From: an uncultured Lachnospiraceae bacterium
GTDB taxonomy: Bacteria; Bacillota; Clostridia; Lachnospirales; Lachnospiraceae
Reading direction: 5' to 3'
Length of the DNA: 42,512 nt
Assembly: GCA_946616835.1 (NCBI GenBank)
Contig: CAMOJK010000013.1
Location: 1-42,512, forward strand
Below are positions 18,500 through 34,488 of the stretch, one piece after another (position 1 is the stretch's first letter; the number at the start of each line of letters is the position of its first letter). The notes under the pieces are model-generated. The model was not told the DNA's origin. It saw nothing but the letters and a program-made list of their open reading frames with translations, and made no database searches. The position numbers and the translations under genes are program-made.

Positions 18500-19930
18500 T
18501 TATATGCAGAAATATCTCTCTGCGTTGTAGTATGATATTCCTTCAACTATCTTCTTGAGGGATTTCTCATTGTTAGGATACTCGCCGTCCTCTACCCACT
18601 TTCCTATAAGGTTGCAGGCGATTCTTCTGAAGTAGTCGTGTCTTGTATATGAAAGGAAGGAACGGGAATCTGTAAGCATGCCTACAAAATTTCCAAGCAG
18701 TCCCAGATTTCCAAGGGAACGCATCTGCTCTTCCATGCCATCGCGGGTATCAAGGAACCACCAAGCTGCACCAAGCTGCATCTTTCCGGGCACCTCATCA
18801 GACTGGAAAGGTCCGAGGCAGGTGGTTATCTGGTTGAAATCATTATGATCGAGAGAGAATACGATAGTCTTCGGAAGCTCGTTTGTTGCATCCAGCTCCG
18901 AGAAAAGCTCTGCCAGCTCGTTATAGCAGCTGCTCTTTGCGATCATGTCAAAACCGGTATCCGGTCCTTCGATCTTGAACATTCTCTCGTTTACATTTCT
19001 TGTGCAGGAGTAGTGAATCTCCATTACAACATTCTCTTTGTGATACTTTCTTGCAAGACTTAAAAGCACCTTTGTCTGATAGATCTCAGCCTCTTCAGTA
19101 GTGATGCTCTCGCCACGCATTACCTTCTGGAAAGCAGCATCAGCCTCTGCATCACTGCCCTTTCTGAACATCACATAGTCTATGCCGTGGTCAGAAGCCT
19201 TGCAGCCGTGCTTTACGAAGAAATCCAGTCTTTCATTAAGTGCATCGCAGACATCCTGTACTGTATCAAGACTTTCCTTTCCAACGCTTTTTGCGAGTTT
19301 CTTTATATACTCTCTGAATCCGTCCTTTGTGATGTTAATTGCCTTGTCGGGACGGTACGAAGGGCATACGGTAAAGCCAAGATCTTCTTTTGCAAGCTTT
19401 TCATGCCATTCAAGCGAATCAACGGGATCATCGGTGGTTCCGACAAACTTTACATTGGACTTGCGGATGATCCCGCGAACGGAAAGTTCAGGATCATTCT
19501 TTAACATATCGGAAGTCTTGTCCCAGATTTCCTTTGCATTATCTTCTGTTAAAGGCTCGGTTATACCGAAATATTTCTTTAATTCCAGGTTTGACCAGTG
19601 ATACATAGGGTTGCCGATTGCCATTTCAAGAGCCTTGGCAAACTCAAGAAACTTTTCAAAAGGCTCAGCATCGCCTGTGATCTTGTCCTCAGGAACACCG
19701 TTTGATCTCATTACACGCCATTTATAATGATCACCGAAATAGCTGCCATCGGGATTCTTCCCGCCCAGCCATATCTGTGCAATATTGTCATAACGTCTGT
19801 CCTCATATATCTCCTGCGGTGAGATGTGACAGTGATAATCGATTATAGGAAGTGACTCTGCGTAATCGTGAAACAGATGCTTAGCTGTATCGTTATATAG
19901 CATGAAGTCCTTATCCATAAATTCTTTCAT
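18500..19930 (-). CDS. uxaC: Glucuronate/galacturonate isomerase
   Basis: 476 residues from the ATG at 19930, ten bases after GGAGGT; a GTG at 19942 overlaps the ribosome binding site and is unlikely. Amidohydrolase-fold uronate isomerase that converts D-galacturonate to tagaturonate (and glucuronate to fructuronate). Signature segments: IIDYHCHISPQEIYEDRRYDNIAQIWL with the metal-type histidines, MEIHYSCTRNVNERMF, and FSLDHNDFNQI. First gene of the seven-gene operon uxaC-uxaB-uxaA-pta-kduI-dhuI-ackA and directly downstream of a promoter with a perfect operator. The 181-base gap to uxaB contains an imperfect hairpin (CAGCATG/CATGCTG near 18432-18465). Confidence 0.96.
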   Translation of the reverse strand: MKEFMDKDFMLYNDTAKHLFHDYAESLPIIDYHCHISPQEIYEDRRYDNIAQIWLGGKNPDGSYFGDHYKWRVMRSNGVPEDKITGDAEPFEKFLEFAKALEMAIGNPMYHWSNLELKKYFGITEPLTEDNAKEIWDKTSDMLKNDPELSVRGIIRKSNVKFVGTTDDPVDSLEWHEKLAKEDLGFTVCPSYRPDKAINITKDGFREYIKKLAKSVGKESLDTVQDVCDALNERLDFFVKHGCKASDHGIDYVMFRKGSDAEADAAFQKVMRGESITTEEAEIYQTKVLLSLARKYHKENVVMEIHYSCTRNVNERMFKIEGPDTGFDMIAKSSCYNELAELFSELDATNELPKTIVFSLDHNDFNQITTCLGPFQSDEVPGKMQLGAAWWFLDTRDGMEEQMRSLGNLGLLGNFVGMLTDSRSFLSYTRHDYFRRIACNLIGKWVEDGEYPNNEKSLKKIVEGISYYNAERYFCI

Positions 19931-19964
19931 TGTATAATACACCTCCGTGTTAAAATGTTTTCAT

Positions 19965-20021
19965 AACGCTTACTGTAAGCGCTTACATTATTGTTATACC
20001 TATATTTTTTGATTCTGTCAA
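19965..20021 (-). promoter_or_regulatory. uxaC operon promoter with perfect palindromic operator
   Basis: Minus strand: TTGACA (20016-20021), 17 bases, TATAAC (19993-19998). Five bases further is the perfect palindrome TGTAAGCGCTTACA (19974-19987). An extra half site AACGCTTAC (19965-19973) abuts it, so a second, overlapping dyad GCTTAC-T-GTAAGC exists. This is the strongest operator arrangement in the window and controls the main catabolic operon. Confidence 0.85.
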
Positions 20022-20118
20022 TAACTATTTTCAAAAAATCACTGAGTTTTATAAAATATATTTTTCAAATATCGGGAATGATTAGAAAAATTTCCGGCCG
20101 TAGCCCGGTAAAAGTTCC

Positions 20119-21135
20119 TTACACCGTTGTTTCCCGGGCGATCAGCGTGCAGGGAACCGATATCTTGTGGGTAAGCTTGTCCACTCCTCCATCGAGTAAC
20201 CGCATAATCCTGTCCACTGTGTCCTTGCAGATTTCTTCTGTATGATTGTCTATGCTTGTTACCTCCGGATTACAGGAAATTGCCAGATCGGAATTGTTAT
20301 AACCGATGATCTCGATTTCTTCAGGTATGTTCAATCCTTTAGCCTGTGCATATTTAACCGCACCGATTGCTATCATGTCATTTGATGCTATGATGCCGTC
20401 GCACTTAAGATCCTCCATTGCCAGCAACTGATCCCTCACTGAGTGAATACGGTTTTCTACATAGATTATCCCGTCTTTTGCACTTTTTCCTACACTCTTC
20501 ATGGCGCGCTCGTAACCGTTTCTCTTTTTATTAGCGCTGTATGAGTGAGAATCTGTAAGGAATACTATATTTTTCCTGCCACGCCTGAGCATAGAGGTAG
20601 CTGCCTCGTAGATAGCTTTTTCATCCTCGCATACGGAAGCATATATATTTTCACCATTTACATTTCCATTAATGATAAAAACAGGAACACGCTTTGCTGC
20701 CGCACGGATATACTCTGTAGCATTGGTATCGCTTCCGTCACCCGCATAGGTCGAACCAATCAACACGAGGCTGTCAATATGTTTTGATAAAAGCATATCC
20801 GTTTTTTTCTGTTTTCCTTCCAGATCAAAACCGCTGTTGCCAAGTATGCAGTCATAGCCATGCTTTATCAGCTCTGTCTCCAGATATGCCACTGCACTTG
20901 CCATATAGGGGTCAGCTATTGTGGGAACCAGCACTCCGATGGTATGCATGGTATTAAGGCCCAGCCCTTGTGCAAATACATTGGGCGTATATCCCACCTT
21001 ATCGATAACCTCCATAACTTTTTTCCGCGTCTTCTCCGATACCTTTTCGGAGCCATTCATTACACGGGATACGGTTGCTATGGAAACACCGGACATCTTC
21101 GCAATATCATAAATATTTATCGCATCTTTATTCAT
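20119..21135 (-). CDS. LacI family transcriptional regulator of the uronate regulon
   Basis: 338 residues. The N-terminal helix-turn-helix reads NIYDIAKMSGVSIATVSRVMNGSEKVSEKTRKKV, and the hinge helix YTPNVFAQGLG has the residues that insert at a central CG step. A periplasmic-binding-like effector domain follows (TIGVLVPTIADPYM..., ASNDMIAIGAVKYAQ, IGYNNSDLAISCNPEVTSID). It most likely represses the surrounding uronate genes and releases DNA on binding a pathway intermediate such as KDG. The predicted recognition sequence fits the six TGTAAGCGCTTACA-like sites. An operator lies upstream of its own gene, suggesting autoregulation. Functionally it is a KdgR/UxuR-type regulator; I give no symbol because orthology cannot be tested here. 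Confidence 0.9.
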   Translation of the reverse strand: MNKDAINIYDIAKMSGVSIATVSRVMNGSEKVSEKTRKKVMEVIDKVGYTPNVFAQGLGLNTMHTIGVLVPTIADPYMASAVAYLETELIKHGYDCILGNSGFDLEGKQKKTDMLLSKHIDSLVLIGSTYAGDGSDTNATEYIRAAAKRVPVFIINGNVNGENIYASVCEDEKAIYEAATSMLRRGRKNIVFLTDSHSYSANKKRNGYERAMKSVGKSAKDGIIYVENRIHSVRDQLLAMEDLKCDGIIASNDMIAIGAVKYAQAKGLNIPEEIEIIGYNNSDLAISCNPEVTSIDNHTEEICKDTVDRIMRLLDGGVDKLTHKISVPCTLIARETTV

Positions 21136-21521
21136 ATAAGACCAGACCTCTTTTTAATTTTTACATCAGTAATATCAGTGAAGTCAGCTTGTGAGCATCC
21201 AGAATAGTACTAGGCAATACAATGTATGCATGATCGAAATGAATTCATCATTCTTCATTTTCGGGCTCTTTCATTAAACCGTTTACACAGCCCACCAATG
21301 TAAGCGCATACATTTTAGTTTACAACACTATTTTACTGTATTTTTCAATAAAGGAAATACTGAAATATGCTGAAACCGCAATAGTTTTTATATTAAAATT
21401 GACCAATACTACGCACATTTCATTCAATCTAAGGGGTTTTGTGTAAAATGTTGCAAAATAAATCAGAAATTTAGTGAATTTAACAATTCACAATAAATGG
21501 ACTCTATGCTAATATAATTTA
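21136..21521. other. Upstream region of the LacI-type gene
   Basis: AT-rich, no credible gene. It contains the regulator's operator (21297-21314) and a degenerate half site AAACCGTTTACA near 21277-21288. No convincing consensus promoter for the regulator is visible on the minus strand; TAAACT just upstream of the operator is a possible weak -10. Confidence 0.5.
21297..21314 (-). promoter_or_regulatory. Operator upstream of the LacI-type gene
   Basis: AATGTAAGCGCATACATT, one substitution from the perfect palindrome, 162 bases upstream of the regulator start codon. Its centre is 223 bases from the perfect site at 21522-21535, about 21 helical turns, so both could be bridged by a tetrameric repressor. 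Confidence 0.75.
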
Positions 21522-21535
21522 TGTAAGCGCTTACA
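21513..21535 (+). promoter_or_regulatory. Operator-controlled plus-strand promoter for a candidate small RNA
   Basis: A perfect TATAAT (21513-21518) is followed three bases later by the perfect palindrome TGTAAGCGCTTACA (21522-21535). This is the same -10/operator spacing seen at kdgK1 and uxaC. The -35 region is weak (TTCACA at 21487-21492 would need a 20-base spacer). No protein gene lies downstream on this strand. Confidence 0.65.
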
Positions 21536-21611
21536 TTGATTGTGAACCAATTAGTCGCTTTATCCTCCCCCTATTAAAATGCCGGTCTTTGCACACCGGC
21601 ATTTTTGTTTT
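21525..21611 (+). ncRNA. Candidate regulon-controlled small RNA with C-rich seed
   Basis: From the predicted start near 21525 a transcript of about 85 bases would end at a clean Rho-independent terminator: TGCCGGT (21580-21586), loop, ACCGGCA (21595-21601), then TTTTTGTTTT. Between them AAGCG (21525-21529) can pair with CGCTT to make a 5' domain. The stretch TATCCTCCCCCTATT (about 21561-21575) is left single-stranded. Such unpaired CU-rich seeds bind Shine-Dalgarno sequences in several Gram-positive small RNAs. No open frame with a ribosome binding site is present. Alternatively the terminator only protects against read-through and the operator is a looping site. Confidence 0.5.
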
Positions 21612-21652
21612 CCTTTTTTCCATGAACCACATATTCGTACAGTAGACTACAT

Positions 21653-21687
21653 AAAAAAGACCTGCCAACATGATATCGACAGGTCTT
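21653..21687 (-). terminator. Terminator of the kdgK2-kdgA-kduD-GH43 operon
   Basis: On the minus strand AAAGACCTG pairs with CAGGTCTTT, followed by TTTTAT; it lies about 45 bases after the GH43 stop codon. Confidence 0.85.
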
Positions 21688-21730
21688 TGTCATCCGATAA
21701 TTAAAGTTTTGATCAGGCGCTCAGCCAAGT

Positions 21731-23359
21731 TTAAAAATCTGCACTTTGTACTTTAAGGAACCCTTTCGAGCCTTCCCCGGACGACACGCAGAATACTCCG
21801 TATTTTACGCCTACCCATCGTCCCGGAACGGCCTTCATCTCAAAAGCTTTTTTATACTCTGCACCATCCGTGGAGTAATACATGCTTACTGTTTCCTCCG
21901 GAAAGTTTCTCTCCGTAGGGCTTAAGTCCCTTATGCCGGTACGCTCCACAACATATTTTACAAACACGGATCCGGCTTCATCCGGCAGGCTTTCCAATTC
22001 TGCGCTGTACTCACTTATTTTTTCCGCAAGGATCTTTCCGAAATGCTGCTTTCCCAGCACACGGGTTACCTTTATTCCGTCAGCCTCCCGTGTAAAGGAG
22101 AGCAGACCATACTCCATTCCCATAGAGATAACACCGGCCTCATCCCCCTTTTGCAGATTTGATATGTCTAATTTTATTATATCTCTGAATTCAGGAGCCT
22201 GCCATTTCTGCAGGAGGAGATTCGGAATATCTCCATAAGCTCCATCCTTTTTTACTGCATGCAGGATTAAATCCTGACCATCCGTGTCATACCATTCCTT
22301 TTTTTCGTTTGCATTCCACTGCCATCTGAGGTCAGGGATGCCTGTAAGGCCTTTAAAACAGCCTGATGAAGCTTCCGCCCGGACTGCTTCAGCTCCGGAT
22401 ACTCCCCCGGAAGGCTCTGAAGCCTTGTCACTCATACCGACATTTGGCATCCGGTATCTCCTTACCGGTTCTCCATAGTCATTTCCGGCCTTTGCAATGC
22501 CGATCACAGGCCAGTCATCATGCCATTCCATAGGCTGCAGGTGCACAATGCGTCCTGCTGCATAGACATCCTGGAAATGTATGAACCAGTCCTCGCCTAT
22601 GACGGTATCTACCCAGGCCCCCTGGTGAGGTCCGTTTATATCCGACTCACCCTGCCGCATCACGACACGGTATTCATAAGGTCCAAATATATTTTTTGAG
22701 CGAAGCACCGTCTGCCATCCTGTCTTCACACCTCCTGCCGGTGCAAAGATATAATACCAGCCGTTCCGTTTATAAAGCTTGGGACCTTCTATCGTGGTCT
22801 GGTCATTTTCATTCCCATCAAAGACCACAACCGGCTCTCCGATGAGCCCCATTCCGTCCGGCTGCATCTCCTGTACATGGAGTACACTTTTATATCCTAT
22901 CCGGCTCTTTGCAACACCGCTTACCAGATACGCCCTGCCATCTTCATCCCAGAAAGGACATGGATCGATCCTGCCCGCTCCCTCATATATCCTTACGGGA
23001 TCAGACCATTCGCCATACGGATCTTTTGACGTACACATATATATCCCTTCATCAGGCATAGGGAAACAAATAAAGTATTTTCCGTCGTGGTACCTTATCG
23101 CAGGAGCCCACACGCCACATCCGTGAACAGCCCTGTCATAGCGGCTGTCAGGCAGTTTTTTCAGTGCATAACCGATAAGCTCCCAGTTCACCAGATCACG
23201 CGAATGCAGAACGGGAAGTCCCGGTGTATTGCTAAAGCTCGATGCCGTCATATAATAATCAGCCCCGACGCGTATCGCATCGGGGTCTGAATAATCCGCA
23301 TATAAAACCGGATTGGTATATGTGCCGTCATCATTATCTGATATCCATGCATTAACCAT
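21731..23359 (-). CDS. Glycoside hydrolase family 43 (xylosidase/arabinofuranosidase-like)
   Basis: 542 residues without a signal peptide, so probably intracellular. The N-terminal five-bladed propeller (about 1-300) shows the three GH43 acidic residues: Asp in NPVLYADYSDPDAI (general base), Asp in RIDPCPFWDEDG (pKa modulator) and Glu in TTIEGPKLYKRNGWYY (general acid). The C-terminal 200 residues form the beta-sandwich seen in beta-xylosidase-type members (GH43_C2/DUF1349-like: LLLQKWQAPEF..., RWVGVKYGVFCV). It probably removes arabinose or xylose from imported pectin side-chain oligosaccharides. Last gene of the kdgK2 operon; it starts 53 bases after kduD with a GAGGA site. Confidence 0.88.
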   Translation of the reverse strand: MVNAWISDNDDGTYTNPVLYADYSDPDAIRVGADYYMTASSFSNTPGLPVLHSRDLVNWELIGYALKKLPDSRYDRAVHGCGVWAPAIRYHDGKYFICFPMPDEGIYMCTSKDPYGEWSDPVRIYEGAGRIDPCPFWDEDGRAYLVSGVAKSRIGYKSVLHVQEMQPDGMGLIGEPVVVFDGNENDQTTIEGPKLYKRNGWYYIFAPAGGVKTGWQTVLRSKNIFGPYEYRVVMRQGESDINGPHQGAWVDTVIGEDWFIHFQDVYAAGRIVHLQPMEWHDDWPVIGIAKAGNDYGEPVRRYRMPNVGMSDKASEPSGGVSGAEAVRAEASSGCFKGLTGIPDLRWQWNANEKKEWYDTDGQDLILHAVKKDGAYGDIPNLLLQKWQAPEFRDIIKLDISNLQKGDEAGVISMGMEYGLLSFTREADGIKVTRVLGKQHFGKILAEKISEYSAELESLPDEAGSVFVKYVVERTGIRDLSPTERNFPEETVSMYYSTDGAEYKKAFEMKAVPGRWVGVKYGVFCVSSGEGSKGFLKVQSADF

Positions 23360-23411
23360 ATACAGTCCTCAGTATATATCCTGACAAAAAACTGTGTTCT
23401 TCAGAAAATTA

Positions 23412-24173
23412 TTATCTTGCAAGCCATCCGCCGTCAACAGCAATGGTAAACCCGTTCATATAAGAAGATGCCTCGGAAGCTAAGAAGATAGCAGCACCGG
23501 CCATATCTTCCGGAGTACCCCAGCGTCCTGCAGGAATACGACCAAGGATCTCAGCGCTTCTGTTTTCATCATCACGAAGCTGTGCAGTATTATTGGTAGC
23601 CATATAGCCGGGAGCAATGGCATTAACATTGATATTATACTTTGCCCACTCATTTGCGAGAGCACGTGTCATACCAAGTACTGCGCTCTTGCTTGCTGTA
23701 TAAGCAGGCACACGGATTCCGCCCTGATAGCTGAGCATGGAAGCAATATTTATAATCTTTCCACCCTTACCATCAGCGATCCAGGTCTTTGCAAAAGCCT
23801 GGCTTAAGAAAAATACCATACGCTCGTTAAGATTGATAACTGCATCCCAGTCCTCTTCCGTAACATCAGCTGCATCATTACGCCTGATGATACCGGCATT
23901 ATTTACCAGGATATCGATCCTGCCTGCACTCTCTGTCTTTGCAAGAATCTGTGCAATAGCATCCTCAGCTGAAAGATCAACTATCACCTCGGTAAATTCA
24001 CCGCCGTTTTCCTTAATCTTTGCTGCAGTCTCCTCACAGCTCCTTCTTGCTACGCCATATACATGAGCACCTGCTGCCGCAAGTCCCACACTTACGCCCT
24101 GGCCAAGACCTGTGTTCGCACCGGTAACTACCGCATTTTTTCCTTCAAGTGAAAATAAACTCTGAATATCCAT
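23412..24173 (-). CDS. kduD: 2-dehydro-3-deoxy-D-gluconate 5-dehydrogenase (KduD, SDR)
   Basis: 253 residues, classical short-chain dehydrogenase. The cofactor motif is TGANTGLGQG, then VNNAGIIRRND; the catalytic Ser in NIASMLSYQGG and the YTASKSAV Tyr-Lys pair follow. The N-terminus (MDIQSLFSLEGKNAVVTGANTGLGQG) and the C-terminus (DGGWLAR) match KduD. It reduces DKII, the product of KduI/DhuI, to KDG with NADH in the cytoplasm. It sits between kdgA and the GH43 gene. A short hairpin (TCAAAAT/ATTTTGA, 24229-24258) lies in the 113-base gap before it. Confidence 0.95.
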   Translation of the reverse strand: MDIQSLFSLEGKNAVVTGANTGLGQGVSVGLAAAGAHVYGVARRSCEETAAKIKENGGEFTEVIVDLSAEDAIAQILAKTESAGRIDILVNNAGIIRRNDAADVTEEDWDAVINLNERMVFFLSQAFAKTWIADGKGGKIINIASMLSYQGGIRVPAYTASKSAVLGMTRALANEWAKYNINVNAIAPGYMATNNTAQLRDDENRSAEILGRIPAGRWGTPEDMAGAAIFLASEASSYMNGFTIAVDGGWLAR

Positions 24174-26373: not shown

Positions 26374-26422
26374 AATGTAAACGCTTACATTTTCATTATA
26401 GCCCTTTTCTTTCTCTTGTCAA
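26374..26422 (-). promoter_or_regulatory. kdgK2 operon promoter with operator
   Basis: Minus strand: TTGACA (26417-26422), 16 bases, perfect TATAAT (26395-26400). Five bases further is the operator AATGTAAGCGTTTACATT (TGTAAACGCTTACA on the plus strand, 26376-26389), identical to the site at kdgK1. The start codon is 110 bases downstream. Confidence 0.85.
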
Positions 26423-33190: not shown

Positions 33191-33241
33191 TTGACAAACA
33201 AAATTTTGTCTCCTATAATCGAAAATGTAAGCGCTTACATT
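33191..33241 (+). promoter_or_regulatory. Consensus promoter with perfect operator before the GltD-like gene
   Basis: TTGACA (33191-33196), exactly 17 bases, TATAAT (33214-33219). Six bases later is the perfect palindrome TGTAAGCGCTTACA (33226-33239) inside AATG...CATT. Both promoter boxes are perfect, so strong expression is expected when the repressor is released. Confidence 0.9.
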
Positions 33242-33267
33242 TTCATTTGTCCAAAGGAGGCCAAACC

Positions 33268-34488
33268 ATGTCAGTACATGTAATAGATGAATCCAACAGA
33301 TGCCTTCAGTGCAAAAATCCCAAATGCCGCGAGGAAGGCTGCCCCATACATACCAATATCCCGGAGGTAATCCGTCTTTTTAAGGAAAGGGATATGATGC
33401 AGGCTGCACAGATACTTTTTGATAATAACCCCCTTTCCATGATCTGCTCTCTGGTTTGTGATCATGAAAAACAGTGCGAAGGCCACTGTGTGCGCGGAAT
33501 AAAGGGTGACCCGGTTCATTTTTCCACCATAGAAAACTATATTTCCGATTCCTGTTTCGAGAGACTCGAACTCAAGGTGCCGGAACCCAACGGCATGAAA
33601 GCAGCAGTAATAGGAGCCGGTCCCGCCGGGATCACCATTGCTATCCAGTTAGCCATGAAGGGCTACAAGATCACCGTCTTTGAAACAAGGGAAAAGATCG
33701 GCGGAATCCTTTATTACGGCATTCCTGAGTTCCGTCTGCCGAAGTCCATACTCGACCGCTACTACAAGAGAATGCGGGAAATGGGTATCATGTTCCGTCC
33801 CAACTTTGCACTCGGCGGATCTACCACCATTAAGGATCTTCTGGATGACGGCTATAAGGCTGTATTCGTTGGAACCGGGGCATGGAGGCCTCGTAAACTT
33901 GGTATCCCCGGGGAAACTTTTGGAAATGTTTTTTACGCTATCAACTACCTGAACAGCCCTGATGTATATGAGCTCGGAGACCGCGTGGCGATCATAGGCG
34001 GCGGCAATGCTGCTATGGATGTAGCAAGGACTGCTATCCGCCACGGATCAAAAGAAGTCACTGTATATGTCCGCGGTGATTCCGTAAGTGCATCAACAAC
34101 GGAATTCGAGTATGCCAAAGTAGACGGCGTCAGATTTGTTTTCCGTAAGACTCCCATACGTATCGAGGACGAAGGTCCCGTATTCTGTGATATGGAAGGA
34201 AACAGAGAAGAAGGATATAAGATATTAACGGAAACAGAGGAGCTGATCCCTGCTGACAGCATAATAATCGCAATTTCACAGGTGCCGCAGGACAATCTGC
34301 ACAAGGATGTTGAGCTTAAGAAAAATCAGCGCGGTACTCTGGAAACCAACGAACACGGCGAAACCACCATGCCAGGCGTCTTCGCTTCCGGGGATGTAGT
34401 AACCGGTGCCAAGACAGTAGTAGCTGCCGTCGCTGTGTCCAAGCAGATTGCTGAGGATATGGATAAATACATGCAGGGTCTAAAATAG
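33268..34488 (+). CDS. GltD-like NAD(P)-dependent flavin oxidoreductase
   Basis: 406 residues from the ATG at 33268, eight bases after AAAGGAGG; an earlier in-frame codon at 33247 lies before that site. N-terminal Fer4_20-type iron-sulfur region with cysteines at 12, 15, 20 and 25 and a second group in CSLVCDHEKQCEGHC. FAD-binding AAVIGAGPAGITIAIQLA, then NAD(P)-binding VAIIGGGNAAMDVARTA, then the C-terminal FAD segment PGVFASGDVVTGAKTVV. It resembles the glutamate synthase small subunit or NfnB-type diaphorases, but no GltB or NfnA partner is adjacent. The regulated promoter places it in the uronate regulon, where it may balance NADH/NADPH or ferredoxin. Substrate unknown. Confidence 0.88.
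   Translation: MSVHVIDESNRCLQCKNPKCREEGCPIHTNIPEVIRLFKERDMMQAAQILFDNNPLSMICSLVCDHEKQCEGHCVRGIKGDPVHFSTIENYISDSCFERLELKVPEPNGMKAAVIGAGPAGITIAIQLAMKGYKITVFETREKIGGILYYGIPEFRLPKSILDRYYKRMREMGIMFRPNFALGGSTTIKDLLDDGYKAVFVGTGAWRPRKLGIPGETFGNVFYAINYLNSPDVYELGDRVAIIGGGNAAMDVARTAIRHGSKEVTVYVRGDSVSASTTEFEYAKVDGVRFVFRKTPIRIEDEGPVFCDMEGNREEGYKILTETEELIPADSIIIAISQVPQDNLHKDVELKKNQRGTLETNEHGETTMPGVFASGDVVTGAKTVVAAVAVSKQIAEDMDKYMQGLK

Follow-up and report, generated by a model that had tools for sequence, protein, structure and literature searches.

A predicted C-rich small RNA gene in a uronate regulon, and similar RNAs in Lachnospiraceae

Does the intergenic space beside a sugar-specific repressor gene hold a small RNA that answers to the same repressor? 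The question is raised by a window (the whole stretch of DNA analyzed, 42,512 nucleotides) from an uncultured Lachnospiraceae bacterium, which is one contig of a 178-contig assembly (3.05 Mb, 85.6% complete). The window is a galacturonate/pectin neighbourhood encoding UxaC, tagaturonate reductase, altronate dehydratase, KduI, KduD, and KDPG aldolase, together with two PfkB-type sugar kinases, a pectinesterase, acetate kinase, and phosphotransacetylase. The lacI and GH43 genes both lie on the minus strand, and the 595-nt gap between them houses a plus-strand cassette. Judging from its sequence, we think it likely that this stretch is a stand-alone regulatory RNA gene of about 90 nt, repressed by the LacI-type protein, released by sugar, and endowed with a seed that would pair with Shine-Dalgarno regions. 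A sequence-only reading had already proposed such a gene in the uronate LacI-type regulon, and this proposal gains from the conservation of the cassette and from the match between its layout and a separate family of C-rich sRNAs.

An operator-bearing cassette between lacI and GH43

The presumed regulon comprises the following features.

20119-21135, minus strand: LacI-family repressor gene, whose product is presumed to bind the operators
21522-21535: operator, perfect palindrome TGTAAGCGCTTACA, which overlaps the expected transcription start and is presumed to bind the LacI-type uronate repressor
21299-21312: operator with one mismatch near lacI, kept in genomes G008 and G026, degenerate in G034
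19974-19987: perfect operator upstream of uxaC, same regulon
33226-33239: perfect operator, same regulon, upstream of an oxidoreductase gene on the plus strand
26376-26389: operator with one mismatch upstream of a PfkB-type sugar kinase gene, same regulon
1198-1211: operator with one mismatch upstream of a PfkB-type sugar kinase gene, same regulon

We found seven sites in the window within three mismatches of the operator, when 1.57 were expected and none of 100 shuffles reached seven. With at most one mismatch, the operator occurs at seven places in the whole assembly, six of them inside the window (the backwards pattern occurs once). These six stand at galacturonate/pectin genes, including uxaC, the two sugar kinases, lacI, and the oxidoreductase. 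The perfect operator at 21522-21535 is common to the cassette and the uronate genes, which we took as the criterion for membership in the regulon. The sole operator-like site outside the window (G000:C7:5651, L004) has one mismatch.

The operator at 21299-21312 probably serves the autoregulation of lacI. The oxidoreductase gene (33226-34488) resembles that of the small subunit of glutamate synthase and has a TTGACA-17-TATAAT promoter next to its perfect operator; it thus seems to belong to the uronate regulon, without obvious reason. Orthologues of the repressor (E <= 1e-60) were found in 21 of the 35 genomes of the genus. When 20 of the lacI loci were examined, 14 had operators (at most two mismatches) and 6 had none.

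The cassette itself is composed of the following elements, all on the plus strand.

21487-21492, plus strand: -35 hexamer TTCACA, 17 nt before TAATAT; TTAACA in G008 and G026
21510-21515, plus strand: extended -10 element TG-C-TAATAT, overlapping the alternative -10 TATAAT
21513-21518, plus strand: alternative -10 TATAAT, invariant across four species
21522-21612, plus strand: predicted sRNA of about 87-91 nt, its start placed from the promoter and its end from the terminator
21525-21560, plus strand: 5' hairpin, predicted in each of the four species though from different pairs
21561-21573, plus strand: C-rich seed TATCCTCCCCCTA, identical in four species, its core unpaired
21576-21605, plus strand: intrinsic terminator hairpin, an 11-pair stem followed by a T-rich tail TGTTTTCCTT

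A promoter, a perfect operator, a gene-free stretch, and a terminator can thus be read directly and in this order, as the sequence-only reading had it, and no open reading frame of at least 90 amino acids overlaps the stretch. Consensus scans of 19900-23500 found 10 promoters against 9.1 expected, which alone is at chance level, and 5 terminators against 2.7 expected, which alone is not above chance; the evidence hence lies in the combination of the elements and in their conservation.

The spacing between promoter and operator (measured by eye) depends on which -10 element is used. In the cassette, TATAAT ends 3 nt short of the operator; the corresponding distance is 6 nt for the operator at 33226 and 5 nt for those of uxaC and 26376, and at 1198 the kinase promoter allows a reading of either 3 or 5 nt. 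The idea that the cassette has the same spacing as kdgK1 and uxaC thus needs correction for TATAAT (3 nt, against 5 at uxaC); TAATAT (21510-21515) ends 6 nt before the operator, in agreement with the majority spacing of 5-6 nt. Since this extended -10 element has TTCACA 17 nt upstream, the -35 box is also less weak than had been stated, although it is not the TTGACA of the promoters at uxaC, 26376, and 33226, which read TTGACA-17-TATAAC or TATAAT.

The C-rich segment TCCTCCCCC is read at 21563-21571. In predicted folds of all four species, the seed core CCTCCCCC is unpaired with a probability of 0.98-1.00. The claim of an unpaired C-rich segment stands for this core, and less fully for the 13-nt seed as a whole, whose mean unpaired probability is 0.81-0.91 in the same predicted folds.

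Transcription, repression by this LacI protein, the nature of the inducer, and pairing with targets are what we infer from this anatomy. When pectin sugars are lacking, the LacI-type repressor encoded by the neighbouring gene would occupy the operator over the start site and block transcription. Sugars of the galacturonate pathway would free the repressor, and RNA polymerase would start near 21522-21525 and stop near 21612. The resulting RNA would hold its C-rich segment UAUCCUCCCCCUA unpaired, with the 5' hairpin on one side and the terminator on the other. This segment could then pair with the G-rich Shine-Dalgarno regions of other mRNAs and lower their translation.

Conservation and distribution of the cassette

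We searched 60 genomes, including the bacterium's own, with the DNA of 21440-21720. Matches were found in eight: the own genome, three with long matches (G008, G026, and G034), and four with short matches only; G008 also gave one short extra match. The long matches have 86% identity over window positions 21479-21610 (G008), 85% over 21476-21610 (G026), and 82% over 21505-21611 (G034). In other words, they cover the cassette only, starting at 21476-21505 and ending at 21610-21611, just beyond the T tract. The three genomes are from three other species of the same genus, and in each the cassette likewise lies between lacI and a GH43-like gene. Two of the short matches (L012, L013) were inspected in sequence and are not the cassette, and three others (L009-L011) align only with positions 211-246 of the query, beyond the cassette.

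Identity across the four species, in bins of 20 nt, is 60% at 21500-21519, 90% at 21520-21539, 55% at 21540-21559, 77% at 21560-21579, 80% at 21580-21599, and 45% at 21600-21619, and falls to 0-15% in all bins from 21620 on. The cassette is thus a conserved block in diverged intergenic DNA. A further patch, at 21300-21400, is partly conserved (45-70%), as expected of the lacI promoter. TATAAT, the operator, and the 13-nt seed are identical in all four species, and the terminator stem of G034 shows one compensatory change from T-A to C-G and the loss of one pair beside the loop. Promoter, operator, seed, and terminator are hence found in order, as one block, in the sequences of four species, so that promoter, seed, and terminator are conserved jointly in three relatives. 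Since G008 and G026 are nearly identical here, the four carriers amount to about three independent lineages. The predicted pairs of the 5' hairpin differ among the four species, which leaves this hairpin weakly supported, and the failure to keep it pair by pair counts against the reading as an RNA gene.

One may ask whether the operator belongs instead to lacI or to a remote loop, with the hairpin being only a bidirectional terminator of GH43 and no functional RNA being made. In its favour, lacI and GH43 are both minus-strand genes, and minus-strand transcripts too could stop at the hairpin. Yet GH43 has its own minus-strand terminator-like hairpin (21688-21656), and a nearer operator for lacI exists at 21299. 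This account also leaves unexplained why the 13-nt unpaired seed is invariant, why a plus-strand promoter stands in register with the operator, and why conservation ends just beyond the plus-strand T tract. We consider it unlikely, and retain the stand-alone RNA gene as the better explanation.

To place the cassette in a broader sample, we scanned for operator plus seed in the genome_contigs collection (one genome per species, 84,980 species). Five stretches were found, in the three relatives and in two Thermus-group bacteria; the latter two lack the terminator and the rest of the cassette (by eye) and were rejected. Within the genus, the cassette was found in only 4 of the 35 genomes, and in 4 of the 21 that have the repressor. 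In the other 17 repressor-bearing genomes, none of the matches turned out to be the cassette. The cassette model (R1) matched weakly in G019 and G020, at a different gene with the same plan, which led us to the class A genes described below; a match in G032 (L020) was dismissed by eye. The RNA cassette has the look of something added in one lineage to a regulon that is older.

Known small RNAs and a putative wider C-rich family

The predicted RNA has the layout of the csRNAs of streptococci, with an unpaired anti-Shine-Dalgarno stretch between two stem-loops (predicted folds), but csRNAs are driven by the response regulator CiaR and occur in different bacteria. The CiaR promoter motif is a direct repeat, TTTAAG-N5-TTTAAG, and TTTAAG is absent from 21400-21522. 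Passages of PMC3091779 describe CiaR-dependent csRNAs as typically having the unpaired anti-Shine-Dalgarno region between two stem-loops, as occurring in several related copies with predicted sizes of 51-202 nt, and as carrying an anti-AUG CAU in 53 of 61 cases. CAT is absent from TATCCTCCCCCTATTAAAA, i.e., the window seed is without the anti-start-codon CAU of csRNAs.

C-rich regions are also found in RoxS, FsrA, and CsfG of Bacillus and in staphylococcal RsaE, which are under the control of metabolic regulators; those of RoxS and FsrA pair with mRNAs (parts of PMC8216469). The window RNA differs from these four in its regulator, a sugar-specific LacI-type repressor. The seed had been likened to that of RsaE, and Rfam lends no support to a kinship: at gathering score no family was found in the whole window, and a loose search of 21440-21640 returned 12 other families with E of 0.32 or worse, and no RsaE/RoxS, FsrA, or CsfG. 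The window RNA appears to resemble csRNAs or RoxS/FsrA in layout and presumed action and, as far as these comparisons go, to be a member of neither group.

Control of an sRNA by a LacI-family protein that responds to the carbon source has precedents in RosA of B. subtilis and RsaI of S. aureus, which are controlled by CcpA (as given in portions of PMC8216469). The same portions place a predicted CcpA site of RosA from -1 to +12 of its 5' end, and describe RosA as about 229 nt long, with G-rich regions and a sponge action. The window RNA is predicted to be, like these two, a stand-alone sRNA under a LacI-family protein, although CcpA is global and the window repressor local. It could be that the RNA is made but acts mainly, in the role of partner or sponge, by pairing with other small RNAs instead of repressing mRNAs: the stand-alone, CcpA-controlled RosA and RsaI pair with C-rich sRNAs (PMC8216469, in part), and the own genome has two more C-rich sRNA candidates of similar layout. 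RosA and RsaI act, however, through G-rich regions, and the window RNA is C-rich, so that it would be a partner and not a sponge. We give this possibility little credence.

As the product of the transcript, a short peptide is very improbable, and we rejected it because the frame of the seed differs between species: from a TTG start, a frame of 13 codons reaches SSPY-stop in both the window and G034, but the seed is in another frame and the SSPY stop is absent in G008 and G026, and by eye the TTG has no Shine-Dalgarno sequence before it.

The first group of C-rich genes similar to the window element, class A, consists of a 5' hairpin, TCTCCCCC(C)TCAT, and a terminator. The pattern CTATCTCCCCCN{0,1}TCAT has 28 sites in 27 of the 35 genus genomes (reversed pattern: 0), nearly all of which show, by eye, a promoter-like region, a 5' hairpin (e.g., GATAGTG...TTACTATC), and a terminator whose sequence varies. 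A close variant in G004, G010, and G016 brings the total to 30 of the 35. Of the genomes sampled from the order, 17 of the 48 that belong to the same family have the pattern, as do 2 of the 247 from other families; the latter two (L056, L073) and an extra site in the same family (L065) do not resemble a class A gene. Paired copies of class A occur in three genomes inspected (L224, L226, L230). Class B is defined by CTATCTCCCCC(C)TCACC and a strong terminator, and is found in five genus genomes including the own (L110, L111-L114).

Contig 47 of the own assembly, G000:C47:4407-4498, minus strand: class A (L047)
Contig 3 of the own assembly, G000:C3:46235-46333, minus strand: class B, CTATCTCCCCCTCACC (L110)
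Other loci of class A: L023-L050, L057-L079 (except L065 and L073), and L222-L230

Another C-rich candidate (L118, G029:C114:13052-13143, minus strand) has a hairpin, CTACCCCCCTC, and a strong terminator. Upstream of class A genes (e.g., L030, L033, L045), we observed ACACA repeats spaced by 11 or 22 nt ahead of the -10 element. They suggest control by a response regulator, which we would take to be of the OmpR type, or by a similar tandem binder.

We collected 49 class A sequences and aligned 37 of them (alignment A4), leaving out 12 from the family sample. The A4 consensus has changes on both sides in 8 of 15 pairs, seven in the terminator and one in the 5' hairpin. The covariance model R2, built from A4 without the window element, reaches E <= 0.05 in 33 of the 35 genus genomes, with some of these matches being weak and not sRNA-like. 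With a cut-off of E <= 1e-4, it has matches in 43 of 120 family genomes, which represent 42 of 119 genera; at least 4 of the 43 had supplied training sequences (G000, G002, G177, G306).

The sole R2 match in the window is 21514-21620 on the plus strand (E 2.5e-4), a score similar to that of about a dozen unexplained matches of at least 21 bits in the 35 genomes; at the genome scale the G034 cassette has E 0.02 only, and the search of the own genome (two matches) omits the window element. The window element shares with classes A and B a 5' hairpin, a TATC-(C)TCCCCC core, and a terminator. In class A, CTATC is part of the hairpin, the C run is followed by TCAT, and direct repeats stand in the promoters, whereas the promoter of the window element carries the operator. 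Common descent of the window element with classes A and B is suggested. Rfam at gathering score also had nothing for nine further loci, of which seven are class A and two are relatives of the window element. There looks to be an undescribed Lachnospiraceae family of similar C-rich RNAs, absent from Rfam in the loci tried. Among the matches listed from open-licence papers, none reports the window RNA or class A; the nearest in theme concerns RNAs from the E. coli uxuR gene (PMC10016265, as far as its available text goes).

Candidate targets and significance

We looked for complements of the seed before ATG in the four carrier genomes. The pattern TAGGGGGAGG gave 2 matches, against 5 for the reversed pattern. 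Its match in the own genome is a 13/13 seed complement, lies upstream of what is by eye a Cas9-like gene, and is probably due to chance. This 13-nt complement (L129, around 1501-1524 of G000:C85) lies before a tiny open reading frame and is absent from the other three carriers. The pattern AGGGGGAG gave 53 matches against 36 in controls, including near-identical site strings at a Ser/Thr-kinase-like gene in all four carriers (the protein was read in G000 and G026 only).

The pattern GGGAGGATA gave 51 matches against 3 in controls. For comparison, these 51 sites in the 12.15 Mb of the carriers stand beside 214 in 60.5 Mb of 18 non-carriers, i.e., 4.2 against 3.5 per Mb, so that seed-complementary Shine-Dalgarno sites are not clearly enriched in carriers. 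As the rate is nearly equal in the 18 cassette-free genomes, we regard them as strong Shine-Dalgarno sequences, not as demonstrated targets. The genes with GGGAGGATA sites include four whose proteins were named by a family scan: sufC (G000 and G034), galM (G000), the glucose-6-phosphate isomerase gene pgi (G000; the protein of G026 shares its N-terminus), and a gene for a GGDEF protein (G034), with an identical site string in all four carriers. These four are candidates only. In the window, no obvious link is seen for any of the three best duplexes, which involve a WYL protein, a KAP NTPase, and an unassigned protein.

We see about even chances that Lachnospiraceae have a family of C-rich, Shine-Dalgarno-blocking sRNAs, absent from Rfam and often in several copies, of which one clade has placed a member under a local pectin-sugar repressor, such that one sugar signal would open the catabolic operons of its own pathway and silence other messages. 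The proposed control by a local, sugar-specific repressor and the apparently unreported Lachnospiraceae family are the new points. Lachnospiraceae are a main fibre-degrading group of the gut and rumen, and their post-transcriptional control is little described in the literature searched. If the pectin-switched sRNA is real, one glycan could hold back the use of other glycans, and no global regulator would be needed. The wider RNA family provides a ready list of genes for tests in cultured species.
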